From: Strigamia acuminata
Lineage: Eukaryota > Arthropoda > Chilopoda > Geophilomorpha > Linotaeniidae
NCBI GenBank assembly: GCA_949358305.1
Contig: OX442314.1
Location: 3,785,087-3,849,086 of the forward strand
Direction: 5' to 3'
DNA: 64,000 bases
Below the pieces are notes generated by a model. That model saw nothing but the letters and a program-made list of their open reading frames with translations. It was not told the origin of the DNA and did no database searches. Of this stretch, positions 9,150 to 32,729 are shown one piece after another. A program made the translations under genes and the position numbers. How positions within the stretch are numbered: position 1 is the stretch's first letter; each line of letters begins with the position of its first letter.

Positions 9150-9239
9150 ATGGCAGACGAAGAAGTCAATCTTCATCCCGATGATGAAATGCCGATGGAC
9201 GAGGCAAACGGAGCCGTCCAGTTAACGCTCCAACAACGG
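9150..9239 (+). CDS. gypsy1 ORF3 exon 1 (30 codons, acidic)
   Basis: A 30-codon open exon starting MADEEVNLHPDD and ending ..LTLQQR, followed at once by a splice donor (CGG|GTAATT). The intron is 9240-9507 (268 nt) and ends in a strong acceptor, TTTTTTCCTCTAG. Both junctions are phase 0, and the second exon is open from its first base. The gypsy2 element has a matching exon of exactly 30 codons, also acidic and phase 0, although its sequence is different. Splicing is inferred from the sequence only. Confidence 0.65.
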
Positions 9240-9507
9240 GTAATTTATTAAAAATATTTTTACCAAGTGTTTCAGTCACGAAATTTGAGTGAAGTCAAGT
9301 TTTGTGACATCAAACACGAGCCGCTCCAAGTTAAAAATGGCGGCTATAAAAGTCACGTGCTTCAAGCATGTGCGAAGGGAGTTGCCATAGCAACCAACAT
9401 CCCTTAGTGGTTCAACGCCACAAGCTTCAAGCTTAAATAATTACAAACAAGAAATTGTTTACTAATTATTAAATAAATTAATCAATTTTATTTATTTTTT
9501 CCTCTAG

Positions 9508-11521
9508 ATTGAGAGAGATCGGGAGACGCCTGACGCGCTCCCGGATCACGTACCAACACAGCATCCGCTGATATTTCGGGCGGCGCTGCCCGAAAAGATC
9601 CGAAGACTCAAGACGGATCGTAATACGTGGTGGAAGTTGCGCCATGAATTTTCGGGGGCCGCCCTTCAAGGATTCGGAGCCAAGGGCCGGTTCATCGACC
9701 GTCTTCGCGTCCCAGGTGTCGACGAAGTCACCTGGACCATGGAAGACAGCGCGCCAGGACAAGTCGCTTCAGACTTGCTGCACAACCAGTGGCCAGTAAC
9801 GCCGCGAGAGCGTTACGATCGCCGAAAGGTGATCAAGGGAGGCCGTATTAATTACGGCGCCCTTACCCAGTTGAGGAAGAACCTCAAAACGACCCGGAAG
9901 GAGGTCGTGCAACGGTACCGAAAGTCCGTTCGTGACGGGAAGCCGCAATTTCCCGCCACACAAACCGAGCTCCATCAATTGGCGCTCGCCGGGTGCTTTA
10001 ACGACTTTCCGGGGTTTTTCCCGTCAAAAGCACTCCGAGCTGCCGCCGCGCTGCTCTTAGTCGATGAAAATCGACAGCTGACTCGACAACTCAAGGCAGA
10101 TGAGCAAGCGCGTCTTGCTCTTCCGTTTTACCCGGCGGACGAAATTCCGGCCCCAACGCCGATCGTTTCTGCGCCGCAAGACGAAGATTTGAGGGTGGGA
10201 CGACTCCCTCCCGCTGGATCGAGCACTGGACCGCAGCGACGTGAATCCAGCCGCGACCGAGAGGAGCGACAGAGGCGATCGCGCCCATACACCACGGACG
10301 CGCCTCCAAATCGTCCACCGTCGCGAAGAGGTCGAACTCCGGAGTCATTGTTCTCCTCGTCCTCCCAGAGCGTGGAATCCGACACGACTGTCAAGTCCGC
10401 GCGCAGTGGCAGAACGGCGTCCACTTACAAAGTGGACAACCCCGCCACTCCATACGCAATGCGTCGTGTTATCGGTGATATCTCTCCCGACTTTAGCGTG
10501 CCTGTGCCAGGACACGCTAGCCGCTTGCCGGAACATGGATATGTTGCCCGCTTGCCTGCCGGAGTTAGTAACTTACAGCTCCGGCTGTTTTTCAACGAGT
10601 CTTTCGGACCCCAGTGGACCTGCTACGAGCAGCAACCCATTAGAGCGCAGCAAGAAGTGCTCAAGAAGCTGGACGCCTACCAAAGCGCCCAGCTAGCCGA
10701 ATCACAGAAGGATTGGCAGAGACTAGCCGAAAGGCTAGAACTCTCCGACATCAAAACCATTGATGATCCCCGTCTGATGGACTTTCAGCGTCAGCTGATT
10801 CCGGGGATGACCAGGGTGTTGTACCCTGGTGTTCTTCCTTCGCCAGGACAGGCGTTGGCGGCCATTACCTACCTGTGGACCGCCCCGATGGGCCTGTCGG
10901 AGGAAAAAGTCAAGTTGTGGTACCACATCCGACTTGACCCGCCTACGATTCTAGCCGAATTAATAAAGCAGATCGTAGCAAACGGCGAAACTGAAGAAGA
11001 AGCCGCCGTTCGATTGAGGACCGAATGGTCATTTGCGAAGGCCACGGCGCAGCAAGCTCGAAGCATTCCGCCTCCCGCTACCTGCGCCACAGCAGCCGCA
11101 TCGTTAGCTGCTTTCCAGTCGGCTCAAGAAGCGCCTGGATGTTCGTTTTGGACGGAGAACCGAAGAAGTTCTCAAACTCCATCCGGAGTTCAAGCGGTGA
11201 CGATGCCCCGCATGCTCCCAGGTGCTGGTCGAGCCCAAGGACGAGGGAATTTGCCCTCGCCAACCTCCGCACTCGCGTTGGTTTTTGCTGGCTCGCCGAG
11301 CCAGTTCGATGACGTCGGAGATGAGGACTCACGTCCGCCGCCGCCGCCGCCGCCAGTCAAGCCAATGAAGAAGGAATCGGCCTTCAAAACGTTGATGCGG
11401 TTGTACCCGCATTTTTACTTAACGCCGGACACACGGACAATGTTAAGTAACAACAGTAAACTCTCGAGACGAGTGTTTATGTGGCTCGAGGACCACATCC
11501 GGGTATTAAGCCCGCCGTCCA
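9508..11521 (+). CDS. gypsy1 ORF3 exon 2, 5' part (split by copia A)
   Basis: A long third gene after pol, where env sits in errantiviruses. It is not env-like: no signal peptide, no hydrophobic membrane segment, no cleavage site. It is rich in Arg, Pro and Ser, with a poly-Pro run near 11335. The C-terminal region (KTLMRLYPHFYLTPDTR.. VFMWLEDHIR) matches the gypsy2 ORF3 C-terminus in spacing and key residues: PH, T..TR, VF.WL, IR. The frame runs from the acceptor at 9507 without a stop into the copia A target site and resumes at 19171. The spliced product would be about 786 residues without copia A. Function is unknown to me. Confidence 0.7.
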
Positions 11522-12078
11522 TGTTGGACTTTAGAACCACTTTTGAGTTATTTAAATCATTTTTCGATGTGAAATGGCTTTGAAACGTTTATTTTATCAT
11601 TTATCGGTAATTGTTTCCATTTTCCTGGGTTATTCAGTGTTTATTTAGTGTTTTCATGCTTGTTTGTCAGGAGAATGCATGATACCGGGTTAAATGTACT
11701 CAATACATTAGGTTTCATGCATCCTCTATCTTGTTCTTATGCTTTTCATTATTATTGTTTATAATATCGGCCACCAGATGTCTCTGGCACATTACAAATG
11801 GCCGCTCACACGGGTAGTGTGTTTCCTTGTGTTTGTCCAGTGATTCTGGACCCATTATGTAAGTTTTCTCTTAATAAATGTTATATTTTTGGTTAACTAT
11901 TGTATTTAGTTCGGCACTACACGTTTCTATAAGTGTAGTGCACGCGAATTTGATCGTAAGTCCGCTCAAACTCGCGTACGCGCATCACGCGCATTTGTCC
12001 GCACTTAGAAGTGCGTTTGACTCAGTTTTACGCTTCCTATCGCCTATTTCGGCGATATTTTTGCGCCACACAGCTACA
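11522..12078 (+). repeat. copia A 5' LTR
   Basis: Starts TGTTGGACTTTAGAACC and ends CAGCTACA. An AATAAA lies near 11872. It matches the 3' LTR along its length except for C instead of T near position 16, which implies a young insertion. Confidence 0.92.
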
Positions 12079-12080
12079 AG

Positions 12081-12092
12081 TGGTAGCAGAGG
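12081..12092 (+). promoter_or_regulatory. copia A primer-binding site (initiator Met tRNA)
   Basis: TGGTAGCAGAGG, two bases after the LTR, is complementary to the 3' end of animal initiator methionine tRNA. Copia B has the same site at 23779-23790. Confidence 0.85.
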
Positions 12093-12331
12093 CCTGGAAA
12101 GCCACCAGTGCCTCGTTTTTCCATTAATTTTCCGTGAATTTCGCGATTTTTCGCGATTTTTGCGAAAAAAAATTTTTTTTTCAGATTTTCGACGATTTCC
12201 GGCAGTCAACAACGTCTTTATGACGTTCACAACCCCGGAGTGCGGTCGTAATCGTCGATTTTTGAATTTTTTCAACCTTTTTTCGTGTTTTTCGAGTTAA
12301 AAACACTGTTTTTTTGTGTTTTTCGACTTAA

Positions 12332-13509
12332 CACTGGAAAAAAAAGCAAATTTCCAAACATTTTTAAGTTGAAAATTTATATGGAAAAGTTGAATTTACT
12401 ACGATGAGGAAATTTGTTGGAAATATGTTGGAAATGATTACATATTTCCAAACTTCTGGAAATGTGTAGTAAATCTAGAGATGAAAACTAATATTTCCAA
12501 TAAGTTGTAAATCTTTTGTTCAAAGTGTTATGTTTCCAATCAGTTTTCTTTAAGTTGGAAATGTGTTGTAAATGTATGAAATGAAAATATGTCATTTCAC
12601 AGTGATTATAAAAATAATGTAAAGGCAAGAAAATGCATGAAATTTAAAGGTAACATTTAAACACATGAAATGTAACAGGCACAAGGTAAAATACAGTCAG
12701 GAACATGAAAATTGTATCAATTTTGAACTCTGAACAGAAAATAATGCCTAAAACGAACCAATTTCGAACGTGTGGGCACAATATGGAAACGACCAATCAG
12801 GGCGCAGGGACGAAAAAATACGTGTTTCGTCGATGAAACGTACCGTCGTTAATGAAACAAACAACCGGCTCGCACACTTAAAATACAATATATCTCAAAC
12901 AATAAATACCAAATTGACTGTTAGAGAATTCAAATCAAAACCATTTAACAAAGATTTAGCTATATAACTTATGGGAAGTTACACATTTAATTATCACAAG
13001 TCATGCTAGCCTAGTGGATAGGGTAGTGGTCTTTAGAACAAAGAGTTCCAGGTTCGATTCCAGCAGAGGTCAAGGTAAGAAAACTATAAGATTAAAATAA
13101 ATTTAAATAAAACTGTTAATAAAACATGCAAATTGTGATCTAATCAATGAAAACTAATTGTTGAATGGTGTTTGAAAAAAAAAAATCAAACTGCTTAAAA
13201 AAAAAATTGAGTTTGTGTATTTAAATTTTTCAAAATGGAGGGTAGTAGATTTTTTTATTGGAAATATATTGGAAATATATTGGAAATTTATAGGAAATAT
13301 ATTGTGAAATTTCAAATTTTCACAATTGAAAATGTTTGTAAAGTTATTGTAAAAAAAGTCACGGAAATGGTCTCTTTCCAGATTGTAAATATGTTTGGAA
13401 AAGACTTATTTTCAATTGTTTGTAAATCTAATTTACAAACTTGTAAAATCCATCTACCTATATATTTACAATTCTTTACAAGTGAGTAAATCTGATTTTT
13501 TTTCCAGTG
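12332..13509. mobile_element. CACTG-ended non-autonomous DNA transposon
   Basis: The inverted ends are CACTGGAAAAAAA at the left and TTTTTTTCCAGTG at the right, flanked by a 3-bp TAA at 12329-12331 and 13510-13512. CACTR ends with a 3-bp target fit the EnSpm/CACTA group. Subterminal parts are full of short GGAAAT/ATTTCC and TTGTAAAT motifs in both orientations, as seen for transposase-binding arrays. There is no transposase. A tRNA-like block lies inside at 13000-13072. Since the host copia A is young, this element moved more recently still. Confidence 0.7.
13000..13072 (+). pseudogene. tRNA-like sequence with RNA polymerase III A and B boxes
   Basis: TAGCCTAGTGG at 13007-13017 matches the internal A box, and GGTTCGATTCC near 13051-13061 matches the B box perfectly, with tRNA-like spacing. 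The acceptor and T stems pair poorly, so it is unlikely to be a working tRNA. It may be a tRNA pseudogene or the head of a tRNA-derived SINE captured by the transposon. Confidence 0.6.
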
Positions 13510-14195
13510 TAAAAACACTGCTTTTTGTGCATTTATTGTGCAAGATAGCGACAATTGACCTAGGAAAGGTCTTGTTCTTTTTTTTTCCCTCTAATTTTTC
13601 GTGAATTTCGCGATTTTTCGCGATTTTTGCGGAAATTTCATTTATTTTCAGATTTTTTCGCCGATTTTCATCATTTGTCACGTTCCGACAACGTCTGAGC
13701 GACGTTTTCATCCAGAAACGGGCATAACCCGCTGTCTGCACCCCGGAGTGCGACAGTATCGGCGATTTTCGAGAAGTTTTTCCCGGTTTTCAAAATCGGT
13801 CGGCGATCTTTTGAAGAATTCCGCATTTTTTATGCGCGGTGTGCACAGGGACGTCTGTGCATACAGATTCACCAACTTCTCCTTCTTTTTATTTCAGATT
13901 TCGAATTTATTTGTTAATTTTAAGTTTTTGGAGTGGGTCCCGATTAGTATCGGCACAGCCCTTCGGACATTCCGTCCAAGCTGTGCTTGTATTCTTAGAC
14001 AAGGCTGAGCCCTGCGCCACCTAACATTCCCGCGGCCCCAGGTGGTCATAAAGGACGTTAGGGGGACACTTGTCTAAGGTTCTTAGCCAATTTTAGCATT
14101 GGCTCCCCGTCGAGGTTTTTCCGCTTCTAACAACGTTTAGTGAAGTGCTTCGAGTGAAAAGTGCTCCGATTACGTCTTTAGTGCCTCGAGTGTTT

Positions 14196-17100
14196 ATGCG
14201 TGCTCATTATCGCCATTATCTCCGATTTTCCTCCGGAAAAATGCAGACAGCAAGAGCCAACTTGAATTGGAATCGGTACACGAAGGAAACATCGGCTTTT
14301 GCTATGGACAATCGTGGATGCAATCAATCCCGACCTCCTCGTCCGATTTCGATGGTTCGCTGTTTTAATTGCGGCTTTTTCGGCCACTACGCGAATAAGT
14401 GCCCCCGCCCTCGCAAACAGGGCAAGGAACCGCAACCGGTCGCGTCTCAACAAGGCCGACCCCGCAGTAAGAGCAAACGACGGCAGAATAACAGTTCGCA
14501 GCAATCCGGTGGTCAAAACCGTGATGTTTCTCGTCCCCGAAGGGACGCCGCTTACCTGTTGTCGGCTCCACCGGTGATCGAAGCTCCGGTTGTACATTTT
14601 CTCCAGTCCCACGAATGGATTGTCGATTGTGGGGCCACCGACCACGTTTCGCACGTCAAAGCGTGGTTTACGAACTTTGTTTCCGTTGTCCCGTTCAACA
14701 TCGAGTTAGGCCAGGGCAGTTCGAGGGTCACAGGCAAAGGTGACGTTCCGGTCAAGTCGCTCATCGATGGCTGCGAATGCACCGTATTGCTCCGCGACGT
14801 CTTATTCGCACCTGACTTCGGCGCAAATCTTATCTCGGTTTCTCGGATTGATAAATGCGGACATCACATCCACATTCACAACTCGGAATTGCATACGTAT
14901 GAAACGGACATCAAACTAAGTGTTCTTCGGGCGAAACAGAAGTCTGGACTTTATTTCGTGGATGGGCTCATCTCGCCATTCGCCGCTCCGACTAATGTTT
15001 CGAGTTCGTCTGTTTCATCATCACTTCCGACTCCGACACCGACCACTCTAGTGACGAAGGAAGAGGACTTTCCCGCATTGCCCAAGTCTTCCAACAAGAC
15101 TAAGAAGAAGTCGGCTGACAATATGACCGATTTCCGCTTGCCCGTCTCCTCCAACACCTTGCTTGTCCCTTCACTTTTCCCTACCAGTCCTGCTCCTATT
15201 CCCGGATCCCAACCTCAACAGATCCGGATGTATTCCAATGCCCTCACATCTCCTCCTCCCGTTGCCAAGTCAAACGCAGCATTACCTCCCAAACCAGTTA
15301 ATCCTTCGGTTGCCAACGTCGCAGACGCCACGGGATTGTGGCACGGCAGGCTGGGTCACCTGCATACGAAGGCCATGCGGACTTTAGCGGCTAACTCCCA
15401 GGTTTATGGGCTTGATCCAGCTGCTGTTCGCCAGGAACTTTCCTGCAACACGTGCCGTGTTGCCAAGTCCACGCGTGCTCCACATAAGCCAATTTCCGCG
15501 CCTTCAACCACGAAACCGCTTGAATTGCTTCACATGGACGTCTGGGGCCCGTCGAGACTGCCTTCCATCGGCGGTGCTAATTTTGCCTTCACCATTATCG
15601 ATGACGCCACCAGGTACGCCTGGCTTTTCCCGATCGCCCGTAAATCTGATGTTTTTGCTACGTTTAAAGACTTTGTTTCTCGCGTTGAACGTATTGCTGA
15701 TTGCCGAATTAAAACAATTCGCACCGACCGTGGAGGAGAATTCATTTCGAGGGATTTTGACCGTTTTCTTGCCGACAAGGGTATTGTTGCTCAACGGACC
15801 AATCCCGCATCGCCACAGATGAACGGTGTCGCCGAACGCCTGAACCGGACAATGGGCGACTATCTCCGCTCCATCAACTCCGAAACCGGATTTTCGCACA
15901 CGCTTTGGGCTGAACTTGCCGTGACGTTCACATATATCAAAAACCGCAGTCCGCATTCGAAGCTCAACGACGAAATCCCATACATTTTGTGGCGCCAGCG
16001 TGCTCTTTCCGTCAGACATTTTCGTAAGATTGGTTCCAAGTGCTGGGTACACTTCACCGCACCTGGACGCAACAAACTGGATCCTCGAGCGTGGGAAGGA
16101 TTTCTCGTTGGCTACGCTTCGGGAACTCGAGGGTATCGAGTGTGGAATCCGGCTACGAACACCGTCACCGAATCTGTTCACGTCCAAATCGATGAACGGC
16201 AGAACTTTAAGCGCTCGCCCTTTTATGTTCCAGATCCGGATGACAATGCTCCACCCATGGAGGAGCCTGCTCGTGGCCACACCCCGTCACGTGTCACTTT
16301 TCGTGATAACTTTCCAACTCAGCCTTGGCCTCGTCGACGTCACGATTCGGATAACGACTCTTCTGCTGACAGCAGTGACGAGGATGGTATTGCCAGTCGT
16401 GCTCCCTCCGTCGCTTCGAGTGCTCCGTCTTTCGCTTCATTCGCACCATCTCTTCCTGCAGCTGATGGTCTCATCGCCGCTGCTGACGGCTTAGCTGCTA
16501 CGACTGATGGCTCTGTTACCGACGCTGATGGCTCTGTTACCGTCGCTGATGGCTCCGATAATGTTACGACCATTGCAGGACATGGACAATTTACTCCGAC
16601 CGTACGTTTCACCCGCTTGTCTCATCTACGGCGTTCGATGTCCTACCCATCTCTCCCGGGTCTTGACGACACCGCAGCGATGTCTGAACAGGGTTCAGAT
16701 TTTGACGAAGACCTTCTCGACGAAGCGGCTGCCTTGCCTGTCCGACTTCCGGGTACGCCTAATTTGGCGCCTTTACGCGCTCTTCATTGCCCTTGGAGTT
16801 TTGTTGGCGGCGTTTCGCCCTTCAGCGGATGGAGGAGAGAAGAGCATCTCCGGAAAGATCAGGTTCCGGGGAGGATTAAAGTGGACGTTTATTATTATCC
16901 GGAGCACGGTGTCCGCTTGCGGTCGCACACAGATATCGCCGCTTATTGTTTCGCACACCGGATACCGTATGATGAGTCCGTTTTCTTCTTCGGCAATTTA
17001 GAACACCACATGCCATATGCTCCGCCATCGCCTCCTCGTGTCCACATGTGTTTTCGGGAACCGGCCACATACGCCGAAGCTGTGAAATTGCCCGAAGCAC

Positions 17101-18527
17101 CAAAATGGACCGAAGCAATCGACGAGGAACTTTCGACTTTCAAGCAACGAGACGTTTATAAGGAGGTTCCGAGACCCCCTGACAAGACTGTGCTCGGTTG
17201 CAAATGGATTTTTAAGTTCAAAAGTGACATTACCGGAAAGATTACCCGATATCGTGCTCGACTGGTCGCCCAAGGATTTTGGCAGACAATGGGCGTTGAC
17301 TACGATGAAGTTTTTAGTCCCGTAGTCAATTTTGTCCTAATCCGTTTCTTCTTTTGTCTGCTGGTTATTCTCCTCGGATGGAGGAACACGCACCTCGACG
17401 TGAAATGTGCCTACCTCTACGGCGACCTTGACCACGAGATTTATATGCGGATTCCCGCTGGTGCCACATGTTCCTCGCCCGACAACGTATGGTTGTTGAC
17501 CAAGTCGCTTTACGGTCTTCACCAGTCGGGGCGCATGTGGTACCAGAAACTTAATGAAACATTGACAAAACTTGGATTTCAAAAGTTTCCAGCATGTAAT
17601 TGTGTGTACGCCTACGGACATTCGGCCATTATGCTGGTATACGTCGACGATATTGTTTTATTTTATGCTTCGGAAAACATCAGGGATCGAATACTCAAGC
17701 TGATCACGGGGCCAATCACCAAACTGCTGGGAGTCGAGTTCGAGCGTCGTGACGGGAAAGTCTTTATGACTCAACGCAATTACATTGACAAACTCCTCAA
17801 AAAGTTTAATGTTTCATCTGACGCGCTCATCAAGGTGCCAGTCACACCTGGGACCACGTTAGTCAAGGGACCGCTCACCGACCTTCCGGATTTTCCGTAT
17901 CGATCACTCGTCGGATCTTTATTGTTCCTGGCTTCACGTACTCGCCCCGACATTTTGTACTCGGTGATCGCATTATCGCAGTACAACAACTGCTACACCG
18001 AGAGCCATATCAAGTGTTTGCTGCAGGTCCTTCGTTACGTCGCGAACACGAGCGAGTACGCCATCGAACTTTCGAAATGCGATTCGAGTCAACTGTGGGG
18101 TTGCACAGACGCCTCTTGGGCCTCCGACATCGCTACATCGAGATCATTCGGCGGATACATTGTTTACATCGGAAGTGTGCCCATTGGCTGGAACTGCAAG
18201 AAGCAGACCAGCGTCGCTTGCTCCACAATGGAAGCCGAATTTGTGGCACTTGTCGAAATCGTCAAAGAACTCTATTGGCTCGACAGTATTTATCAAGTGT
18301 TTCCACCTTTACGTCGATTATCGAAACCGATCATATTTTCCGATGCCCTCGCCTCGATTCAGTTCACGAACAACGACATCGAGAACTCGAAAACGAAACA
18401 TATTCGAGTGAAGTTTCACTGGCTTCGTGAGTGGCACATTGCCGGATGTTTCGAACTCCGCAAAATTCCGGGTGAGATAAATGTATCCGACATTTTCACC
18501 AAGTGGCTCAGTTCAGAGCGTCTTTGA
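14196..18527 (+). pseudogene. copia A gag-pol, gag-deleted and RT-damaged
   Basis: Open for about 1443 residues. It holds zinc knuckle CFNCGFFGHYANKC, protease DCGATDH, integrase zinc finger and D,D,E core (MDVWGPS, RTDRGGE, NGVAERLN), RT YVDDI and RNase H CTDASWAS. Against copia B, roughly 200 Gag residues before the knuckle are missing. Eight codons are lost in frame just after the RT active site (near 17705), in the segment that carries the conserved KFD..NLG strand, and a TGA ends the protein early. The start is uncertain: ATGs at 14196 and 14241 are both in frame. Confidence 0.9.
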
Positions 18528-18596
18528 AATTTATTATCTCGGATTTTCGTCTCGAAGTAACTTTTTTTCGATTGTTTAGCACCGACATTTTACATC

Positions 18597-18608
18597 GAAG
18601 GAGGGAAT
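18597..18608 (+). promoter_or_regulatory. copia A polypurine tract
   Basis: GAAGGAGGGAAT lies directly before the 3' LTR and is identical to the copia B tract at 29439-29450. It is the plus-strand primer of reverse transcription. Confidence 0.85.
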
Positions 18609-19165
18609 TGTTGGACTTTAGAATCACTTTTGAGTTATTTAAATCATTTTTCGATGTGAAATGGCTTTGAAACGTTTATTTTATCATTTATCGGTAATTG
18701 TTTCCATTTTCCTGGGTTATTCAGTGTTTATTTAGTGTTTTCATGCTTGTTTGTCAGGAGAATGCATGATACCGGGTTAAATGTACTCAATACATTAGGT
18801 TTCATGCATCCTCTATCTTGTTCTTATGCTTTTCATTATTATTGTTTATAATATCGGCCACCAGATGTCTCTGGCACATTACAAATGGCCGCTCACACGG
18901 GTAGTGTGTTTCCTTGTGTTTGTCCAGTGATTCTGGACCCATTATGTAAGTTTTCTCTTAATAAATGTTATATTTTTGGTTAACTATTGTATTTAGTTCG
19001 GCACTACACGTTTCTATAAGTGTAGTGCACGCGAATTTGATCGTAAGTCCGCTCAAACTCGCGTACGCGCATCACGCGCATTTGTCCGCACTTAGAAGTG
19101 CGTTTGACTCAGTTTTACGCTTCCTATCGCCTATTTCGGCGATATTTTTGCGCCACACAGCTACA
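18609..19165 (+). repeat. copia A 3' LTR
   Basis: 557 bp, the partner of 11522-12078. It is followed by the target duplication GTCCA and then by the rest of gypsy1 ORF3 in frame. Confidence 0.92.
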
Positions 19166-22178: not shown

Positions 22179-22203
22179 GAGCTCAGACCGTGGGGCTGAG
22201 CGA

Positions 22204-23198: not shown

Positions 23199-23203
23199 GC
23201 TGC

Positions 23204-23776
23204 TGTTGGTCCTTGAAACCACTTCGGACGTTTATTTAACGCTTTTTCGATGCGTAATGACGCTACCTGAACTTTTTCACATCATTGGTTGTTATATTTT
23301 CTTTCCCCAAATGATTTAGTGTTTATTTCCTACTTAACTGGTTGTTACCAGTTTATTTCCGTATATTTACTTTATATTGTAAGGGAAATGCATGGTGCCT
23401 GCATTAACTGTGTCTTAACACACTGGGCATCATGCATCGCCTATCTGTTTATACCTGTGAGTCGCTCGCTTCTGTCACCAGAGCGCTCTGCCTTTTATTC
23501 CAAGATGGCGACGCACACTGCTAAGTGTGCTCCTGTGCTTTTCAATCCTGTTTTCGTAAGTTTTAGGTTAATAAATCGTTTATTTTGTTTATAAATAATT
23601 CGTTTCTTGTGTCTGCACGTAGATAAGTGCAGACACCACGCAAATTCGACCAGAACCGGCTCGAATTCGCGTACACGACGCGCCGCACGTCTCGTGCGTG
23701 CTATATCGTACGTGTTGGCTTATTTTTAAGCGTTTCCACTGCCTAGTCTGTGCTGTTTTTGCAGCATACCACCACA
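23204..23776 (+). repeat. copia B 5' LTR
   Basis: Starts TGTTGGTCCTTGAAACC and ends CATACCACCACA. Its partner is 29451-30023. An AATAAA occurs near the end (about 23570). Confidence 0.94.
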
Positions 23777-23778
23777 AT

Positions 23779-23790
23779 TGGTAGCAGAGG
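23779..23790 (+). promoter_or_regulatory. copia B primer-binding site (initiator Met tRNA)
   Basis: TGGTAGCAGAGG, two bases after the LTR. A leader of about 670 nt follows, with no gene and GC-rich CGCGATTTT repeats, up to the gag ATG at 24464. Confidence 0.85.
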
Positions 23791-24463
23791 CCTGGAAAGA
23801 CACCAGGGCCTCGTTTTTTCCTTAATTTTCCACAATTTTCGCGATTTTTTCGCGAATTTTGCGGAAATTTTCTATATTTTCAGATTTTTCGCCGATTTAC
23901 ACCGATTTTCGACATGCGACGACGTCTACACGACGTTATCACCGAGAAACGGGTGTAACCCGCTGTTTAGCACCCCGGAGTGCGACAGTATCGACGATTT
24001 TCGTTCGTTTTTCGCGATTTTTCGTTTAAAATCGCACATATCCGTGTTTTTCACACGAGGATCGCGTGTTGCGACGTGCACCGCGACTGATTCGTCAATT
24101 TCGCCTTATTTTGCCTTTCAGAGTCGAATTACCTTTGTTAATTTTAAGTGGGAATTTTGGTGTGGGACAATTAGAATCCTCGGCGCCCTTCGTCCGAATC
24201 CGGGCAAGCGCCGTTGTATTTTTCGGTTGTGCTTGTCGTGGTACAAGTGAGGTTTCCCGCGGCTCCAGGAAGTCGAACGGACCCTCTCAGACTGGCAACC
24301 GAAAGCTATTTAATTCCTTCAGAAGGAATTGCCCATTCTTGGTTTCCGCTTTGACAGTGCTACGGAAAGTGCTTCGCATCGTAATTTGTGCTTCGTTTGT
24401 GCGTCGATTGTGCGTCGATTGTGCGTCAATTTCCCATTTCTACGCATTTTTCTCCGTGCAATC

Positions 24464-27400
24464 ATGAAAAAGGCCACCGACCAGTCGTCAGGCCATGTGC
24501 CGATTCTCGTGACCGGCAATTACGAACACTGGCACCGTGCAATTAAAATGCTATTGATGTCCGACGGCGTATGGCACCACGTCACCGAAACGGAGGAACT
24601 AGTGAAAGCCAACGTCGATGAAGACGTTTGGCGAAAATGGCAACGTCGGAAAGCCCGAGCGCTGGGGACCATTTATTGCCACGTCTCGCAGGCCAAACAG
24701 TCGGCCCTCGACGGTTGCACCACTCCGAAACAGGCGTGGGACATTTTAGCGAAAATTTACGCCCCCAGCTCTCTCGCCCGCCAAGCGGCGATGCGCCGTG
24801 AGTTCCTGCAGCTCAAGTTGGAGCCCGGCGAAGAAATGGCCGATTTCCTCAGCCGCGTTGACCTTATGGTCCGCCAACTTAAAGACGTCGGTGAAGACAT
24901 CCTCCCTCGACATCACGCGTACCAGTATTTAGACTTTCTTCCGGACGAATACGACCAGGCGACTTTTGCCATTTATCATTGGCCGCTGGCAGAGTTTACC
25001 CCGGCTAAAGTCTCCGATCAGTTGTTGTCGGAATATCTACGATTAAAGTCGCATTCGAACCGAAACTCCGGTAATTCCTCCGCTTATGCTACTGGGCGAC
25101 AAGGACGTAACCAGTCGCGACCCCCGCGCCCGCTTGCGCAGGTGCGTTGCTTCAATTGCAACGAGCTTGGACACTACGCCAATAAGTGCCAGCATCCTCG
25201 CAAGCAAACAACTGGGCAACAGCCGGTAGCTACGCTTCAGACACGATCTCGCAGCAAGAGTCGACGCCGCAATAAAGGCTCGAATCCGAATGTAAACCCG
25301 AATCAACAGCAGCAGGGACAGTTTCGCGAGTCTTCACGCCCGCGCCGAGATGCAGCATATCTCCTGTCCGCACCACCTGCGATCCAGGTTCCTACCGTTC
25401 ATTTCGTCCAATCTCACGAATGGATTGTTGACTGCGGCGCCACCGACCACGTTTCACACGTTAAATCGTGGTTCTTGGACTTTGTTGAGGTCGTCCCTTT
25501 TAATATCGAATTGGGACAAGGAAGCTCCAAAGTTACCGGAAAAGGGAATGTTCCAGTCAAGTCACTCATCGATGGCTGTGAATGCACCGTACTTCTCCGC
25601 GATGTTTTGTACGCACCTGATTTCGGCGCTAATTTAATTTCGGTTTCGCGAGTCGATAAATGTGGGCATCACATACACATTTACAATTCGGAGTTGCATA
25701 CATATGGGACGGATATCAAACAAAGTGTTCTTCGGGCGAAGCAAAAGTCAGGACTTTACTTCGTAGATGGACTAATTTCGCCATTTGCGTCGCCGACTGT
25801 TGTTTCGAGTACACCGCCCATCCCAATGTCACCTCCGACTACTGCGCCGATGACTCTCATCACGAAGGAGGAAGATTTTCCCGCGATGCCCTCAAAGAAG
25901 TCGAAGAAAATATCAAACGTTGAAATGACCGACTTCCGCTTACCTATCTCTCCCAACACCCTACTCGTGCCTTCTCCTTCCCCGATCATCCCCAATCCTG
26001 TTGCCGGATCTAAACCACAACAGATCCGGATGTATTCCAACGTCCTATCATCTCCTCCTCCTCCCGTTGCCACGACTAAGGCAGTCCCACCTCCTACAAA
26101 GGTCGTAACGCCGGCTGCGAACGTTGCGGATGCCACGGGATTATGGCATGCCAGGTTGGGCCATCTCCACACCAAAGCCATGCGGACTTTGGCGAACAAT
26201 TCCCAAGTTTATGGACTCGATCCGGCTGCGGTTCGACAAGAACTTTCCTGCAACTCATGTCGCATTGCCAAGTCCACGCGCGCCTCGCATAAACCGATTC
26301 CCACACCTTCGACGACCAAACCGTTGGAGTTGCTGCACATGGACGTCTGGGGCCCGTCAAGACTGACTTCGATTGGCGGTGCTGATTATGCCTTCTCCAT
26401 TGTTGACGACGCGACCCGATATTCGTGGATTTTTCCGATTGCACGCAAATCCGACGTTTTTGCGACTTTCAAAGACTTTGTCTCTCGCGTTGAACGTATT
26501 ACGGATTCCCGCGTCAAATCAATTCGCACGGATCGCGGCGGGGAATTTATTTCTAAGACTTTTGACCGTTACCTCGCTGACAAGGGCATTGTCGCACAAC
26601 GGACCAATCCCGGAAGCCCGCAAATGAACGGGGTCGCCGAACGCCTAAACCGGACGATGGGCGACTATCTTCGCTCCGTTACCTCCGAAACCGGTTTTCC
26701 ACACACACTTTGGGCTGAACTCGCTGTGACATTTTCGTACGTTAAAAATCGCAGCCCGCATTCGAAACTTAACGACGAAGTTCCATATGTTTTATGGCGC
26801 CAGCGTGCCCTCTCTGTCAAACATTTCCGAAAAATTGGTTCTAAATGCTGGGTGCATTTCACCGCACCCGGGCGCAACAAAATGGATCCACGGGCGTGGG
26901 AAGGATTCCTCGTAGGTTACGCCTCCAACACTCGCGGTTATCGGGTTTGGAATCCGGCTACGAACACCGTCACGGAATCCGTTCACGTTCAAATCGATGA
27001 ACGTCAGAATTTCAAACGCTCGCCGTTTTACGTTCCGGATCCCTACGAAAATGCTCCATTCATGGAGGAGCCTTCTCGCGTCACTACACCGTCTCGTGTC
27101 ACTTTTGACGATGGCGCTTTCCCATCTGTCCCCTGGTCACGTCGACGTCGTGATTCCGACGATGAATCATCTAATGACGATGATGAATTCCGCCATCGGG
27201 CTCCATCAAGCGCTTCATCAGTCGCTTCATATCGCTCCGTCCTCGAGGAGGTCGAAGAGGACATTGCTGATGAATTGCCTCCTCCTATTCTGTTTGCGGA
27301 CGATGTACCGGAGGACATCGATTTGGACGTCACGCCTGACCCACCACTTCCGCTTTACCGTCCTCGGAGGAGATTACGTCCCGATGCTTTGGCTCGTCAA

Positions 27401-29404
27401 CCTCACACCCCTGAGGCCAGCGATAGTGAACTCGACGTTGATCACGATATCGAACAATTTTTCGAACGCTATCCCGAACGTGATTTCGAGCACGACCCCG
27501 AAGATGATCCACTTGATAATCTCCTCGATGATCTCCTCGATAAGGCAGCCGCCTTACCAGCGGCCGCTGCAACGCCTGCACCGCCCCTCGCTCCGTTACG
27601 CGCTCTTCACTGCCCCTATCGTTTTATTGGTGGAGATACGCCCTTCAGCGGATGGAGGAGGGAAGAGCATCTCCGGAAAGAACAAGCGCCTGGCAAAATC
27701 AAGGTCGACGTTTATTACTATCCGGAGCACGGTGTCCGCTTAAGGTCGAGAGGGGACATCGAAAGATATTGCGTCGCTCACCAACTTCCGTATGAGGAGG
27801 ACATTTTCTTTTTCGGCAACCTCGAACATCAATTGCAGGACGAGCAACCTGTTCATCGCGTCCTTATGTGTTTTCGAGAGCCGTCCACGTACGCCGAAGC
27901 TGTTAAGCTACCCGAGGCACCGAAGTGGACCGAGGCAATCGATGAGGAGCTCACGACTTTCAAGGAACGCGAAGTTTATAAGGAAGTTCCACGACCCCCG
28001 GACAAGACAATCCTCGGGTGTAAATGGATTTTTCGGTTGAAATCGGATGCCACCGGGAAAATTCACCGCTACCGTGCTCGACTTGTCGCACAAGGTTTCC
28101 GCCAAACAATGGGCGTTGATTTCGATGAAGTTTTTAGTCCGGTGGTTAACTTCGTGCTCATCCGATTCTTTTTCTGCCTCCTAGTCGTTTTACTAGGATG
28201 GAGGGATCTCCACCTCGACGTCAAGTGTGCCTACCTTTACGGCGACCTCGACCACGAAATTTACATGCGGATTCCCGCCGGCGCCACATGCACCTCACCC
28301 GACAACGTCTGGTTGTTAACCAAGTCACTTTACGGTCTTCACCAGTCGGGGCGCATGTGGTACCAGAAGCTCAACGAGACGTTAACCGACCTCGGATTCC
28401 AGAAATTTCCCGCTTGTAATTGCGTTTACGCATTTGGACATTCGGCTGTTATGTTAGTCTACGTGGACGATATCGTCGTGTTTTACGCGTCGGAGAGTAT
28501 CCGAGACCGTATTTTGGCGCTGATTTCCAGCAAATTCGACATCGTCAACCTCGGACCAATAACCAAATTACTCGGGGTAGAATTCGTGCGTCGCGATGGG
28601 AAAGTTTTCATGTCCCAACGCTCCTACATCGACAAACTTCTTAAAAAGTTCAACGTTTCGTCAGATGCACTCATTAAAGTGCCTGTCACACCGGGGACCA
28701 CGCTCGTCAAAGGCTCGTTGGATAATCTCCCGGACTTTCCGTACCGATCGCTCATCGGATCGTTATTATTCCTCGCCTCTCGCACTCGTCCCGACATATT
28801 ATACTCGGTCATCGCTTTATCGCAGTATAATAACTGCTACGACCACCGCCACATCAAGTGTTTGCTCCAAGTTCTCAAATACGTGGCGAACACGAGCGAT
28901 TTCTCGATCGAACTCTCGGGGTGTAATTCCAGTCAGCTGTGGGGATACACAGATGCGTCGTGGGCGAGTGACATTGCGACATCGAGAAGCTTCGGAGGAT
29001 ACATCATTTATATCGGTTGTGTGCCAATTGGCTGGAGCTGCAAAAAGCAGACCAGCGTCGCCTGTTCCACCATGGAAGCCGAATTTGTAGCACTAGTCGA
29101 AATCGTTAAAGAGTTATACTGGTTGGACAGTATCTATCGAGTCTTTCCACCGTTAAACCGATTATCGAAACCGATTATTTTCTCCGATGCCCTCGCCTCG
29201 ATCCAATTCACGAACAACGACATCGAGAACTCGAAAACCAAACATATTCGAGTGAAGTTCCATTGGCTTCGAGAATGGCATATTGCCGGATGCTTCGAAC
29301 TCCGCAAAATTCCGGGTGAAATAAATGTTTCGGATATTTTCACGAAATGGCTTAGTTCCGAACGCCTCCGAAATTTGTTGTCCCGGATCTTCATCTCGAA
29401 ATAA
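24464..29404 (+). CDS. copia B gag-pol polyprotein (1646 aa)
   Basis: One uninterrupted frame, with the first good ATG at 24464 (MKKATDQSSGHVP). Domains in order with rough residues: UBN2-type Gag capsid 40-190; zinc knuckle CFNCNELGHYANKC about 227; protease DCGATDH about 322; integrase zinc finger (H..H..CNSCRIAK); integrase core with D in MDVWGPS about 625, D in RTDRGGE and E in GVAERLNR about 724; acidic linker; RT with YVDDI about 1331; RNase H with YTDASWAS about 1493. All catalytic motifs are present. Gag and Pol are fused, as in many Copia elements. Codon use is more GC-rich than the host exons. Confidence 0.96.
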   Translation: MKKATDQSSGHVPILVTGNYEHWHRAIKMLLMSDGVWHHVTETEELVKANVDEDVWRKWQRRKARALGTIYCHVSQAKQSALDGCTTPKQAWDILAKIYAPSSLARQAAMRREFLQLKLEPGEEMADFLSRVDLMVRQLKDVGEDILPRHHAYQYLDFLPDEYDQATFAIYHWPLAEFTPAKVSDQLLSEYLRLKSHSNRNSGNSSAYATGRQGRNQSRPPRPLAQVRCFNCNELGHYANKCQHPRKQTTGQQPVATLQTRSRSKSRRRNKGSNPNVNPNQQQQGQFRESSRPRRDAAYLLSAPPAIQVPTVHFVQSHEWIVDCGATDHVSHVKSWFLDFVEVVPFNIELGQGSSKVTGKGNVPVKSLIDGCECTVLLRDVLYAPDFGANLISVSRVDKCGHHIHIYNSELHTYGTDIKQSVLRAKQKSGLYFVDGLISPFASPTVVSSTPPIPMSPPTTAPMTLITKEEDFPAMPSKKSKKISNVEMTDFRLPISPNTLLVPSPSPIIPNPVAGSKPQQIRMYSNVLSSPPPPVATTKAVPPPTKVVTPAANVADATGLWHARLGHLHTKAMRTLANNSQVYGLDPAAVRQELSCNSCRIAKSTRASHKPIPTPSTTKPLELLHMDVWGPSRLTSIGGADYAFSIVDDATRYSWIFPIARKSDVFATFKDFVSRVERITDSRVKSIRTDRGGEFISKTFDRYLADKGIVAQRTNPGSPQMNGVAERLNRTMGDYLRSVTSETGFPHTLWAELAVTFSYVKNRSPHSKLNDEVPYVLWRQRALSVKHFRKIGSKCWVHFTAPGRNKMDPRAWEGFLVGYASNTRGYRVWNPATNTVTESVHVQIDERQNFKRSPFYVPDPYENAPFMEEPSRVTTPSRVTFDDGAFPSVPWSRRRRDSDDESSNDDDEFRHRAPSSASSVASYRSVLEEVEEDIADELPPPILFADDVPEDIDLDVTPDPPLPLYRPRRRLRPDALARQPHTPEASDSELDVDHDIEQFFERYPERDFEHDPEDDPLDNLLDDLLDKAAALPAAAATPAPPLAPLRALHCPYRFIGGDTPFSGWRREEHLRKEQAPGKIKVDVYYYPEHGVRLRSRGDIERYCVAHQLPYEEDIFFFGNLEHQLQDEQPVHRVLMCFREPSTYAEAVKLPEAPKWTEAIDEELTTFKEREVYKEVPRPPDKTILGCKWIFRLKSDATGKIHRYRARLVAQGFRQTMGVDFDEVFSPVVNFVLIRFFFCLLVVLLGWRDLHLDVKCAYLYGDLDHEIYMRIPAGATCTSPDNVWLLTKSLYGLHQSGRMWYQKLNETLTDLGFQKFPACNCVYAFGHSAVMLVYVDDIVVFYASESIRDRILALISSKFDIVNLGPITKLLGVEFVRRDGKVFMSQRSYIDKLLKKFNVSSDALIKVPVTPGTTLVKGSLDNLPDFPYRSLIGSLLFLASRTRPDILYSVIALSQYNNCYDHRHIKCLLQVLKYVANTSDFSIELSGCNSSQLWGYTDASWASDIATSRSFGGYIIYIGCVPIGWSCKKQTSVACSTMEAEFVALVEIVKELYWLDSIYRVFPPLNRLSKPIIFSDALASIQFTNNDIENSKTKHIRVKFHWLREWHIAGCFELRKIPGEINVSDIFTKWLSSERLRNLLSRIFISK

Positions 29405-29438
29405 TTTCATCGAACTGTTAATATCGACATTGCACATC

Positions 29439-29450
29439 GAAGGAGGGAAT
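29439..29450 (+). promoter_or_regulatory. copia B polypurine tract
   Basis: GAAGGAGGGAAT, directly before the 3' LTR. Confidence 0.87.
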
Positions 29451-30023
29451 TGTTGGTCCTTGAAACCACTTCGGACGTTTATTTAACGCTTTTTCGATGC
29501 GTAATGACGCTACCTGAACTTTTTCACATCATTGGTTGTTATATTTTCTTTCCCCAAATGATTTAGTGTTTATTTCCTACTTAACTGGTTGTTACCAGTT
29601 TATTTCCGTATATTTACTTTATATTGTAAGGGAAATGCATGGTGCCTGCATTAACTGTGTCTTAACACACTGGGCATCATGCATCGCCTATCTGTTTATA
29701 CCTGTGAGTCGCTCGCTTCTGTCACCAGAGCGCTCTGCCTTTTATTCCAAGATGGCGACGCACACTGCTAAGTGTGCTCCTGTGCTTTTCAATCCTGTTT
29801 TCGTAAGTTTTAGGTTAATAAATCGTTTATTTTGTTTATAAATAATTCGTTTCTTGTGTCTGCACGTAGATAAGTGCAGACACCACGCAAATTCGACCAG
29901 AACCGGCTCGAATTCGCGTACACGACGCGCCGCACGTCTCGTGCGTGCTATATCGTACGTGTTGGCTTATTTTTAAGCGTTTCCACTGCCTAGTCTGTGC
30001 TGTTTTTGCAGCATACCACCACA
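29451..30023 (+). repeat. copia B 3' LTR
   Basis: 573 bp, and no difference from the 5' LTR noticed by eye. It is followed by the duplicated target GCTGC and then by gypsy2 ORF3 sequence. Confidence 0.94.
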
Positions 30024-31794
30024 GCTGCATCATGACCTTGGTCAATGATAGCTGTAGGCTGCGACGATTCACTGGATTCGATCGCTCTGAATCCGCAGTG
30101 AAGGCGGACGAGAGCTTACTCATCATCGCCGTTGCCCATTCGATGAAATATCGCTGGGCCTGATCCACACCTCGCAAGGCGGGCGCGGAGACTCTTGGGT
30201 CTTCCATCACGAAGCGAAACGCTGAGAGCTCGGAGATAGTCGGGTTGGCGGCTTCTCTCGCGAGTCGCGCTTCTTCGTCTCGCCTCTCGAAGAACAGGGC
30301 CGAGGAACCGGGTCGGGGTCGGCTCGGCCTGTAAATGTCGGTCAAATTGGCTCGACATTCCTGCGCAATGCTCTGTCCAACGGGGAGAGGGACTGAGCGG
30401 TCGGTGGGTAAATCCGGCGGATCGCTCGAATTCAACAACGACGGTGGCGGCAGGTCCGGAGGCGGCTGCGTCTTGGTCGGCAGCGTCGGCGTCGGCAGCG
30501 GTGGTGGCGGCTGCGTCGGTGGTGGTGGCGTCTCCGTCGTCTGCACCCCAGTCATTGCGACTTGGGGCGCCGGGAGATGTTGTTCGGAGCTCGAAGGCTG
30601 CACGATGGCGGTTGGCATGCCATCGGGTCGCGGTCGCGAATTTATGTAGTCTGCGAGCCACCTTGCCACCTCGTGTGGGGTCACCTTTCCGTCGGTGACA
30701 ACACCCATCTTCCTGGCGTGTTTCATCGCGGGATCGAAACGTGTCAGTTTCGTCCGCTTCATCTGAGTCAGAATCTCGCGAAGGTCCCGCGTATCTGTCG
30801 CTGGGACGTTTCGCTCACCTGACTGGCTACCACTTCGTCGACCCGCTCTCTTGGAGATGTAGGCGGGTTCGGGGATGGGACGGCCCCGAGCTTCGCACCT
30901 CGCGAAGTATCGCTCCTTGCGATCTTTTTTTCGCTGCTCGCGATGAGTCAGCGGACGTCTAGAAGTGCTGGGACGAGAGACTCGCTCTTCATCACCAGAC
31001 ATCCAAACCTCCTTGCACTCCTTACCGTCTTTAATCTGACGGTTTACGAAAATTCGCGGTCGGGAATACTGCGAAGGGTCACGCACCGTACTAGTGGATG
31101 GCCCAGCTTCGTTGCTTTCAGTCGTGTTTTGAGCGACACGCTGCTTCTTGGTTGTCACCGGGGAACGCGACTGGCTGTTCCCGGCGCCTTTGGAGCGCTT
31201 GCGCTTCCGCGGGTAGCTGCTCTTGGGCCCCAAAATCCCCAGGTGGTGGAGCTGCCACATCTCGGCTTGGGACGTTAAAATTCCCATCCGAGGTCTCCAC
31301 TGGGGCGTACTCTCTCCTAATCGCAGCCTCTCAAACCACAGATGAATATCATCCGCGGTCATCCCCTCGTTTTGGAGGATGCGCTCGGCCACTGCCGCAG
31401 CGGTATCCACCAGCTGTTGTCTATACTGCTGATAGATGGCCTCGCGGGCCTCTTCTGTCTCGGCTGCTCGCCACGCATGCAGCACGTGTTCCTCCGCCGG
31501 AGTGCCAGTGTACTGACTTGACAATCCGGGGTGGAAAATTGGCGATTTCGGGTCCTCGTCACGAGCTAACTCTGTGGCGATGCCTTCGCGCATCCCCTCC
31601 GGGAACGTGTCCAGGAGCGTACAGTCTCGTACCCAACGTCGGGCGATGCATCGGGAATGTAGTATTCGCAGGCGCCAAGGGTCGGCGTCTTCGCCGAAAC
31701 ATCGTCGGTAAAATTCGGGCAGCGCGCCTCGAAATATCCCGCCACGAGCGATGCAAGCGGGGTCTAATGGTCCCCATGTTTTACGTAGTGCCAT
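30024..31794 (-). CDS. gypsy2 ORF3 exon 2, main part
   Basis: On the minus strand it starts directly after a splice acceptor (TCTCCATCCTTCCAG|ATGGC). The protein opens MALRKTWGPLDPAC, has a basic nuclear-signal-like PRKRKRSKG near residue 200, a Pro-rich segment near residue 430, and continues past copia B at 23198. With exon 1 the spliced product would be about 951 residues. It has no signal peptide, membrane anchor, protease or polymerase motif, so it is neither env nor a duplicate of gag. The N-terminal half shows no clear match to gypsy1 ORF3 by eye, but the C-terminal domain does. Confidence 0.75.
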
Positions 31795-32639
31795 CTGGAA
31801 GGATGGAGAAATAAACAATTAATAAAAAGTTAATATTTAAATACGTAGATAAATGGTTGGTTTCGAGGGACGTTGCCGATACGTGCAGCCGTCCGTCGAG
31901 ACCGATTCCTGTCTATCGGTGCAAACGTAGGACGAATTGTCCCTCGTCGGATAGAAAAAAAAGAAGTCATCACGTAAAAAATCTGTCTCATGTCCAAAAC
32001 GCACAGCGAGACGGAATCGAGCCTTTAATCCGGATTTTTATCATCAGATTTTACTTTAAATTAATTCTAACGTTAATTAGAACATTACTAATAATTAAAT
32101 TAATAATTATCAGTCATTCGTAAAAAGAATTCGTCGGGTGTAAATTATTACTAAAATTGCACAATAAATGTGCTTGTCGAAATTTTATTAAATAAATAAA
32201 TCTAATAAAGAATTATTCCGAAGTCGGACTTTGTCTAATTTTTAAAAAAGTTAAAGTCAAATTAAATTTATCCAACACACCGAAAAATTCATCGTACGAA
32301 TGTTAAGTTGCATCAATTCGATGCGTCAAATTACTTGTGGAGAAAAATATTCTTTTACAGAATATTCTCCCCTTGTCATAAAATTATTTATGGCTCGAGC
32401 CCATTGTCTCGCTCGTGACTCAAGTCATGAGGAATTTTCGAGACGCGAGGCGACGTGAAGTCTGCGCTCGCACCCCGAAAACAAATTAACAAGGAAAAAA
32501 TACGATCGTGTGAGCGATCGCGGTTAATAATTAATTATACGCTATTGTGAGTGCAAAGCACTCATGTCAGGTATTAGTCAACAAAATTTCTTCTTCAGCA
32601 GCACGGAACTAGTTCTCATGTGCCGATGCCGACTTCTAC
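31795..32639 (-). other. Intron of gypsy2 ORF3 (predicted)
   Basis: 845 nt on the minus strand. Donor CAG|GTAGAAGT at 32639, acceptor CATCCTTCCAG at 31795. AT-rich with no coding signal. Phase 0 at both ends, as in gypsy1. Confidence 0.6.
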
Positions 32640-32729
32640 CTGATCGGGATGGACTTGGTTTACATCGCGGTCCCAGTTTTCCTCGTCCTCGTGCTCTATG
32701 GCAAGCACGTCGTTCTCTTCCTCGTCCAT
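32640..32729 (-). CDS. gypsy2 ORF3 exon 1 (30 codons, acidic)
   Basis: ATG at 32729, exactly 30 codons, MDEEENDVLAIEHEDEE.. ending ..VHPDQ, then the donor GTAGAAGT. An in-frame stop lies upstream of the ATG, so the start is well defined. Twelve of 30 residues are Asp or Glu. The same length, phase and acidic character are seen in gypsy1 exon 1, although the sequences differ. By analogy with env in errantiviruses, the gene is probably read from a spliced subgenomic RNA (inference). Confidence 0.65.

Follow-up and report, generated by a model that had tools for sequence, protein, structure and literature searches.

A spliced third gene shared by two Gypsy families of the centipede Strigamia acuminata, with a candidate RNA element in its intron

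In errantiviruses, env is a third gene placed after pol and expressed from a spliced RNA. In retroviral systems such as Rev/RRE and the constitutive transport elements, the intron-bearing genomic RNA is allowed out of the nucleus by a protein that spliced RNA encodes or by a structured cis element. Here, a stretch of 64,000 nucleotides of Strigamia acuminata DNA (GenBank assembly GCA_949358305.1, contig OX442314.1, positions 3,785,087 to 3,849,086), called the window at its full length, was analysed. It carries two elements of diverged Gypsy families, gypsy1 (plus strand) and gypsy2 (minus strand), and in both of them pol is followed by an additional open reading frame (ORF), named ORF3. ORF3 is a real third gene of both families, with two coding exons and, in the gypsy1 family, at least one further exon junction upstream. 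The coordinates are displayed in Table 1.

The closest worked-out precedent found for ORF3 is CERV, a protein of the Caenorhabditis Gypsy/Ty3 element Cer1. Passages of two papers (PMC10309623, PMC3315495) describe CERV as the spliced-mRNA product of an ORF between pol and the 3' long terminal repeat (LTR), nuclear and required for the export of unspliced genomic RNA. According to the same passages (PMC10309623, PMC3315495), it has 517 residues and five exons, the first three of them in the gag frame, and it contains H, M and G (G-protein-like) folds with a cysteine-rich C4-type loop in the M domain. ORF3 also lies between pol and the 3' LTR and is the product of a spliced RNA, as read from intron-less copies, whereas its length is about 790-950 residues. 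The primer-binding site (PBS) of gypsy2 is TGGGGGCCTGTCCGGGAT at 40808-40791, which we take to be tRNA-Pro-like. It shares only its first 8 bases with the Cer1 PBS, TGGGGGCCGAACCG, given in a passage of PMC3315495.

Concerning other post-pol genes, ORF3 resembles errantivirus env in being a third gene after pol made from spliced RNA, and differs from it in having no segment of transmembrane strength and in the position of its introns. The sORF2/FAST-like proteins of MDG1-group elements are, like ORF3, non-env accessory products of env-less LTR retrotransposons; however, PMC11952523 gives them 63-107 residues and one transmembrane segment, while ORF3 is long and lacks such a segment. It is well established that LTR retrotransposons can carry extra ORFs downstream of pol, and spliced messages express some of these (PMC5408684, PMC7264820); plant cases are described in PMC7264820. 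In bdelloid LTR retrotransposons, the types named in PMC5408684 are a GDSL esterase, a DEDDy exonuclease and env. Unlike these, ORF3 of the centipede elements has no Pfam match, the GDSL and DEDDy enzyme domains included. The initial annotation of the window had suggested a possibly new ORF3 family. No known family was matched, but a spliced non-env gene at this position is already known from the CERV passages (PMC10309623, PMC3315495). Full-text literature searches, which cannot be queried by sequence and hold few subscription journals, listed no paper that describes this ORF3 in its title or in the opening of its abstract.

Splicing of ORF3

The layout after pol is the same in both elements: an acidic exon of 30 codons comes first, followed by an intron and then by a long exon that reaches up to the 3' LTR. 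Re-reading of the sequence showed that the exon ends proposed by the initial annotation were exact to the base for both genes; a further intron of gypsy1 just upstream (intron A, 9045-9108) had been overlooked. The proposed products of 786 (gypsy1) and 951 (gypsy2) residues agree by arithmetic on the coordinates, with the pieces left unjoined. In the window both genes are interrupted by a nested Copia element (at 11521/19171 in gypsy1, whose ORF3 is otherwise open, and at 30024/23198 in gypsy2). When splice sites were ranked with a rough frequency matrix, the acceptors came 3rd of 540 (gypsy1) and 2nd of 746 (gypsy2) AG sites of their own element, and the donors 5th of 389 and 20th of 504; within the interval of gypsy2, the donor used is outscored by three others. 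A comparable phase-0 exon 1 appeared by chance in 90/2000 and 266/2000 shuffles, so the window sequence alone is suggestive of splicing and is no proof of it.

The genome of the window itself (237.5 Mb) was searched for copies in spliced and unspliced form. Thirty gypsy1-family loci were fetched, the window copy included, and 29 of them bear introns. In all 29, exon 1 has exactly 90 coding nt, with a GT donor and an AG acceptor for the following intron B, and the exon 1 ATG is kept in 28. Intron A, 66 nt long in 27 of the 29 loci (64 nt in the window), has its GT donor in 27/29 and its AG acceptor in 29/29. On the other hand, in the 30th locus (L014) and in a further copy (L032) intron B is exactly missing and intron A (66 nt) is missing too. 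As a result, exon 0 is joined straight to exon 1 in L014/L031 and L032, and in L014 and L032 the exon 1 ATG opens one continuous frame, of 790 and 791 residues respectively.

The pattern searches extended these results. The spliced junction of intron B was found at four genomic sites (two exact, two with a single mismatch, located in exon 2; control 0), and that of intron A at four exact sites plus one more at two mismatches (control 1). The unspliced intron B pattern, which covers the larger gypsy1 subfamily only and not the window copy, matched 65 sites at up to 2 mismatches, including a site whose GT is changed to AT, and 74 sites (control 24) at up to 3 mismatches; the intron A acceptor pattern matched 70 (control 0). 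Sorted by position, three copies lack both introns, C1:63982120 lacks only A and C1:57484504 lacks only B, as expected from partly spliced RNA templates. Two of these five intron-loss copies were read as DNA (L014/L031, L032) and the others are pattern matches. In the gypsy2 family, the spliced junction occurs once (L063, at C6:10318248, read as DNA; its single mismatch falls within exon 1), compared with 169 sites where the form is unspliced, the controls being 0 for both patterns.

L014 is closest to the intron-bearing L022 (97.6%) and L032 to the intron-bearing L027 (96.9%), while L014 and L032 share 96.4%; since each is nearer to an intron-bearing copy than to the other, these identities suggest that introns were lost at least twice in the gypsy1 family. 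Pol sequence is still present upstream in L014/L031, L032 and L063, which means that the templates were long RNAs without these introns, or template-switching products. Three introns belonging to two families have been removed exactly from GT to AG, some alone and some jointly, and this is the mark of reverse-transcribed spliced RNA. ORF3 is thus spliced at the predicted junctions, as read from natural intron-less copies, and the spliced third gene that had been annotated in both elements is borne out at the 9239/9508- and 32640/31794-type junctions.

Homology, selection and character of the protein

ORF3 is homologous between the two families at its C-terminal domain, and a short N-terminal motif is shared more weakly. 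The C parts present 38% identity over 71 residues (score 119; the best of 2000 shuffles reached 49, none as high), and the stretch just before the Copia insertion of gypsy1 presents 31% identity over 51 residues (0/2000 shuffles as high). Shuffles and profile comparison agree on the C-terminal alignment that had been noticed by eye: the profile of 11 gypsy1-family proteins against gypsy2 gave a probability of 97.6% (E 4.8e-12, 117 columns), and tblastn between the two ORF3 gave E 4.7e-12. In the C part, as in pol and gag, it is the third codon position that mismatches affect most (0.46, 0.42 and 0.75 by position). Near the N terminus, the motif IFRxALPE..RR..W.LR stands at exon 2 residue 22 in gypsy1 and 20 in gypsy2, and its region was equalled by 0/2000 shuffles over the first 60 residues and by 11/2000 over the first 200. 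The whole first parts of exon 2 were equalled by 232/500 shuffles, and the motif had a profile probability of 10.8%, so the N-terminal likeness is weaker than the C-terminal one; for the middle of ORF3 the figure was 39/2000. The exon 1 peptides show no significant similarity (355/2000 shuffles as high), despite having exactly 30 codons and an isoelectric point (pI) of 4.05 in both elements. Over the aligned parts, ORF3 identity between families is 31-38%, compared with 48-50% for pol.

Regarding its conservation, ORF3 is under strong purifying selection in the gypsy1 family. The ratio of nonsynonymous to synonymous substitution rates (dN/dS) was 0.094-0.174 in ten gypsy1-family pairs, and along one pair it ranged from 0.05 to 0.34 with its minimum at residues 301-500. 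The exon 2 frame reaches at least 700 codons in 27 of the 30 fetched loci, the exceptions being the window copy, L004 and L009. Homologues with an intact frame are indeed the rule among the scored copies: 60 of 64 gypsy1-type matches (from 1070 candidates) and 117 of 118 matches to the gypsy2 C part (from 1387) lack internal stops. The scored matches are the best candidates, so that 64 and 118 are lower bounds and poorer copies are not covered.

Some gypsy2 ORF3 copies have an unusual setting. Three of them (G000 C1:45682897, 45697744 and 45712587) lie in the same orientation with spacings of 14847 and 14843 bases and resemble a tandem array. At G000 C13:7548586 and C1:1186709 the open frame around the C part is exceptionally long, with 1838 and 1377 codons.

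The protein is basic (the first parts of exon 2 have a pI of 9.8-9.9 and four whole exon 2 copies one of 9.2-9.6), rich in proline and poor in cysteine, and gypsy2 ORF3 contains a candidate nuclear localisation signal, PRKRKRSK. By hydropathy, no stretch of transmembrane strength was found in any window piece or in the four whole copies: the highest 19-residue means are 1.26 and 0.75 for the gypsy1 pieces, 0.61 and 0.64 for the gypsy2 pieces and 0.88-1.01 for the whole copies, and exon 1 is hydrophilic throughout (-0.67 and -1.10). The furin-type sequence RQRR occurs once, within a basic region of gypsy1 ORF3 and its copies, and is absent from the gypsy2 pieces. The four cysteines invariant among 11 proteins (163, 372, 545, 726) are far apart and unclustered.

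None of these 11 exon 2 proteins matched a Pfam family at E values up to 1 which, together with the lack of a transmembrane segment, agrees with the non-env character proposed at the outset. Retrotrans_gag and the CCHC zinc knuckle, which Pfam finds in the elements' own gag, are absent from ORF3, and the profile probability of ORF3 against the first gag ORF of gypsy2 was 0.2%. Sequence searches of the PDB gave no relative and one chance-level hit only, and neither did scans of IMG/VR, for which pol, two pieces of ORF3 and its alignment served as queries. A protein database search with the exon 2 pieces P0001 and P0002 returned no match at E ≤0.001; it used words from the first 500 residues with about 8000 candidates each, and left out the conserved C-terminal domain. 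The same database holds 550 eukaryotic relatives of pol at E ≤1e-10, and among the 120 listed (identities 30-47%) none matches an ORF3 piece. No known family was found for ORF3 in these searches.

The 5' end, the intron core and the proposed roles

Expression in the manner of errantivirus env had been put forward for ORF3. A spliced RNA is indeed made, but splicing of a leader over gag-pol found no support, because the demonstrated introns all lie after pol; the predicted leader-to-ORF3 junction of gypsy2, the one prediction tested, had 0 genomic matches. This prediction starts from a block, GTAAGTCTTT...AAGCATTCAC, which is common to both LTRs (2/200 shuffles as good) and had pointed to a conserved LTR splice donor. 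The donor was dropped, since the predicted junction has no genomic match and the GT differs in part of the gypsy1-family copies, namely L005, L022 and others missed by the pattern, which found 6/30. The palindrome TGACGTCA is present within 600 nt before exon 2 in 28/30 gypsy1-family loci (8910-8917 and 8966-8973, plus strand, in the window) and is possibly part of an internal promoter or RNA element. A role as a promoter, still possible, is weakened by the close relationship of these loci and by its absence from the gypsy2 region. The SL1 spliced leader of C. elegans had 0 matches in the genome at up to 2 mismatches. In gypsy2, a strong donor at 32943 and an acceptor at 32844 delimit a candidate second intron (32942-32845), still present in L063. 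The 5' end of the ORF3 mRNA may come from leader splicing, from an internal promoter after pol or from trans-splicing. Just before gypsy2 exon 1, at 33130-32935 (minus strand), there are also repeated GACCC(C)GTAGC...GCGCACGGG units, each capable of forming a CCCGT/ACGGG stem.

Intron B of gypsy1 contains a core of 110 nt with four predicted hairpins, a candidate cis element that would be present only in unspliced RNA. In six pairs between gypsy1 subfamilies, divergence of the core is 0.087-0.129 (9-13 changes per 110 sites), compared with 0.16-0.35 in the intron flanks and 0.40-0.52 at the fourfold sites of exon 2 (107-125 changes per 330-343 sites). A seventh, closer pair gave 0.066 for the core, 0.12 and 0.40 for the flanks and 0.37 for fourfold sites. 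In 4/5 pairs the core is the least diverged of nine neighbouring regions, pol C-terminus included, and its centre has 146 genomic copies (control 0). Compared with shuffles, folding is far more stable for the whole of intron B (z -7.96) and for the initial 300 nt of the gypsy2 intron (z -6.62). Across 17 copies, 98.7% of the cells of the whole-intron structure are paired, with covariation of 0.071 compared with 0.002-0.012 in slid controls, and helices 4-7 of the core are 98.8-100% paired and almost invariant. Rfam recognised no family in the window or in 8860-9510. Folding strength in 200-nt windows was also tried as an intron-specific mark and rejected, because most such windows elsewhere in the elements fold stably too.

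The preferred explanation of these features, held tentatively and at somewhat less than an even chance, is that ORF3 regulates unspliced RNA in the manner of CERV or Rev and that the intron provides the cis signal. The spliced ORF3 mRNA would give a basic, probably nuclear, regulatory protein, which would act on the unspliced RNA, the sole carrier of the introns, and help it to leave the nucleus for gag-pol translation and packaging; the intron B core would be the signal that tags this RNA. Nuclear action, RNA binding and export are roles that we infer for ORF3 by analogy. With Rev/RRE and the constitutive transport elements, the likeness is in the proposed logic, and no sequence relation is known. 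The narrower version, a switch in which ORF3 made from spliced RNA binds the core within its own intron and exports the genome, is unlikely as it stands. Such a Rev/RRE-like or CERV-like switch, with its response element inside the intron and in a host without a match to C. elegans SL1, would perhaps have arisen independently.

Several results weigh against the regulator reading. The very existence of intron-less copies indicates that loss of the introns does not keep an RNA from being reverse-transcribed, on at least one occasion or in trans. PRKRKRSK is a motif match only, and the AlphaFold models are poor (mean pLDDT, the predicted local distance difference test, 35.5 and 39.5 from two- and three-row alignments), so that the H, M and G folds of CERV could not be looked for. 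The first exons of CERV are in the gag frame, while exon 1 of ORF3 lies after pol, and the clustered cysteines of CERV are not seen; lacking this cluster, and compared with CERV by description, ORF3 is not placed in the CERV family. As for the core, its limits were picked after viewing the alignment. Between L003 and L024, divergence is lower than that of the core in three places, namely exon 1, the leader of exon 1 and the end of exon 0. This is a sign of recombination between subfamilies, which could also account for the low divergence of the core. The two-sided changes that raise the covariation score were found in three base pairs only, all of them outside the core (helices 3 and 9), and 380/500 shuffles reached their count; since the core pairs are nearly invariant, covariation says nothing for or against the core hairpins. 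Moreover, 200-nt windows along the elements mostly fold below shuffles anyway (z about -2.5).

Among the rival explanations, ORF3 could be a spliced accessory protein that counters host silencing by small RNA or chromatin, with the core as a splicing regulator keeping some RNA unspliced. Such a role is somewhat unlikely. It would suit a protein that is basic, proline-rich and without a known domain found, less conserved between families than pol, and carried by families that have multiplied (at least 64 and at least 118 scored matches); however, no feature separates it from an export factor, and a core conserved beyond silent sites fits the cis element of an element-encoded factor at least as well. 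The size of about 790 and 950 residues, the basic charge, the proline-rich linkers and the mostly helical, though poor, models would also be compatible with a further structural protein, which a subgenomic RNA would encode and which would be part of the particle or bind nucleic acid. This is distinctly unlikely, given the absence of the gag domains and the profile comparison with gag described above.

A degenerate or unusual envelope or fusogen is very improbable, considering that the highest hydropathy mean is 1.26, the exon 1 peptides are negative and Pfam gave no match. Least probable of all is that the intron-less copies are products of chance deletion or gene conversion, and that ORF3 starts within exon 2 or at a non-AUG codon. 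This reading is consistent with the ATG that opens exon 2 of gypsy2 and with the candidate upstream intron kept by L063, but not with gypsy1, where a TAG stands immediately 5' of exon 2 and the first exon 2 ATG lies downstream of the N-terminal motif. Deletion would also have had to be exact from GT to AG at three introns, in two families and in several copies and combinations.

The two elements in the window and the meaning of ORF3

Table 1. Positions of the two Gypsy elements, their ORF3 genes and the nested insertions in the window
Feature	Position	Strand	Basis or detail
gypsy1 pol (reverse transcriptase (RT), RNase H, H2C2, integrase)	4867..8858	+	Pfam matches, ORFs, self-comparison
gypsy1 exon 0 (pol stop to first demonstrated donor)	8859..9044	+	donor ACT/GTAAGT at 9044; only the 3' end is demonstrated, 8859 being the first base after pol
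gypsy1 intron A, 64 nt	9045..9108	+	genomic sites with the spliced form
gypsy1 exon 1	9109..9239	+	ATG at 9150, 30 acidic codons (9150-9239), pI 4.05, donor CGG/GTAATT
gypsy1 intron B, 268 nt	9240..9507	+	spliced genomic sites; GT-AG in 29/29 loci
Intron B core, 110 nt, four predicted hairpins, candidate cis RNA element	9315..9424	+	divergence, folding
gypsy1 exon 2, first part	9508..11521	+	acceptor TTTTTTCCTCTAG/ATTGAG at 9508
Copia nested in gypsy1 ORF3	11522..19165	+	LTRs 11522-12078 / 18609-19165, 99.8% identical
gypsy1 exon 2, last part with stop codon	19171..19427	+	
gypsy1 3' LTR	19480..20437	+	end set by eye against copies L005, L010, L022
gypsy2 element	21154..41824	-	LTRs 40811-41824 and 21154-22167
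gypsy2 pol (protease (PR), RT, RNase H, integrase), 1383 open codons	33249..37400	-	Pfam
gypsy2 exon 1, coding part	32640..32729	-	30 acidic codons, pI 4.05, donor CAG/GTAGAA
gypsy2 ORF3 intron, 845 nt	31795..32639	-	exactly missing at C6:10318248 (L063)
gypsy2 exon 2, first part	30024..31794	-	acceptor CCATCCTTCCAG/ATG at 31794; opens with ATG
Copia nested in gypsy2 ORF3	23204..30023	+	LTRs 23204-23776 / 29451-30023, identical
gypsy2 exon 2, last part, conserved C-terminal domain	22204..23198	-	stop codon ends 25 nt before the polypurine tract

The remains of gypsy1 span 3214-20437 on the plus strand. A frame change near 7680 disrupts its pol, remnants of PR and gag lie upstream of pol from 3214 onwards, and neither a 5' LTR nor an N-terminal gag was seen within the window. 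On the other hand, gypsy2 is a young element, with identical LTRs of 1014 nt each, a 4-nt target duplication (ATAC) and the polypurine tract GGAGGGGGAAG at 22178-22168. The Pfam matches of its pol run in the order asp protease (113-202), RVT_1 (368-522), RT_RNaseH (610-715), H2C2 (908-965) and rve (980-1077), and this PR-RT-RNase H-integrase order between LTRs is that of Ty3/Gypsy (Metaviridae-type) elements. By eye, gypsy2 gag is split by an insertion of about 300 nt at about 38360-38065 (minus strand), though the LTRs of the element are identical; the insertion has terminal inverted repeats of about 27 nt and repeated AAACGCCGG motifs.

Both Copia insertions that interrupt ORF3 are young, and each is flanked by a 5-nt target duplication (GTCCA at 11517-11521 / 19166-19170 in gypsy1, GCTGC in gypsy2). 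Their polyproteins (14097-18527 and 24314-29404, plus strand) carry a Pfam MBD (methyl-CpG binding) match between the integrase and RT parts, with E values of 6.4e-5 and 3.0e-5, above the curated cut-off; a literature search on MBD-bearing Copia elements found no such title among the papers listed.

Elsewhere in the window, a DIRS-like element at 46832-51108 (plus strand) has consecutive frames for RT, a Dam-like methylase (a match below its curated cut-off) and a tyrosine recombinase. A single open frame of 624 codons at 53396-55270 (plus strand) has no Pfam match at E 0.01. Two related long palindromes, with arms of 331 and 223 nt, are located at 43681-44474 and 56214-56773, and there is an imperfect tandem repeat at 45947-46369.

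Genes located after pol in env-less LTR retrotransposons often have no assigned function, and CERV is a case in which such a gene is needed for the export of genomic RNA. In the centipede, two diverged families share a spliced gene at this place; its splicing can be read from natural copies, it is under strong selection in the family tested, and it comes with a candidate cis element. Whether Rev-like control is widespread among LTR retrotransposons could thereby be tested directly on a pair of short components, a protein and an RNA.

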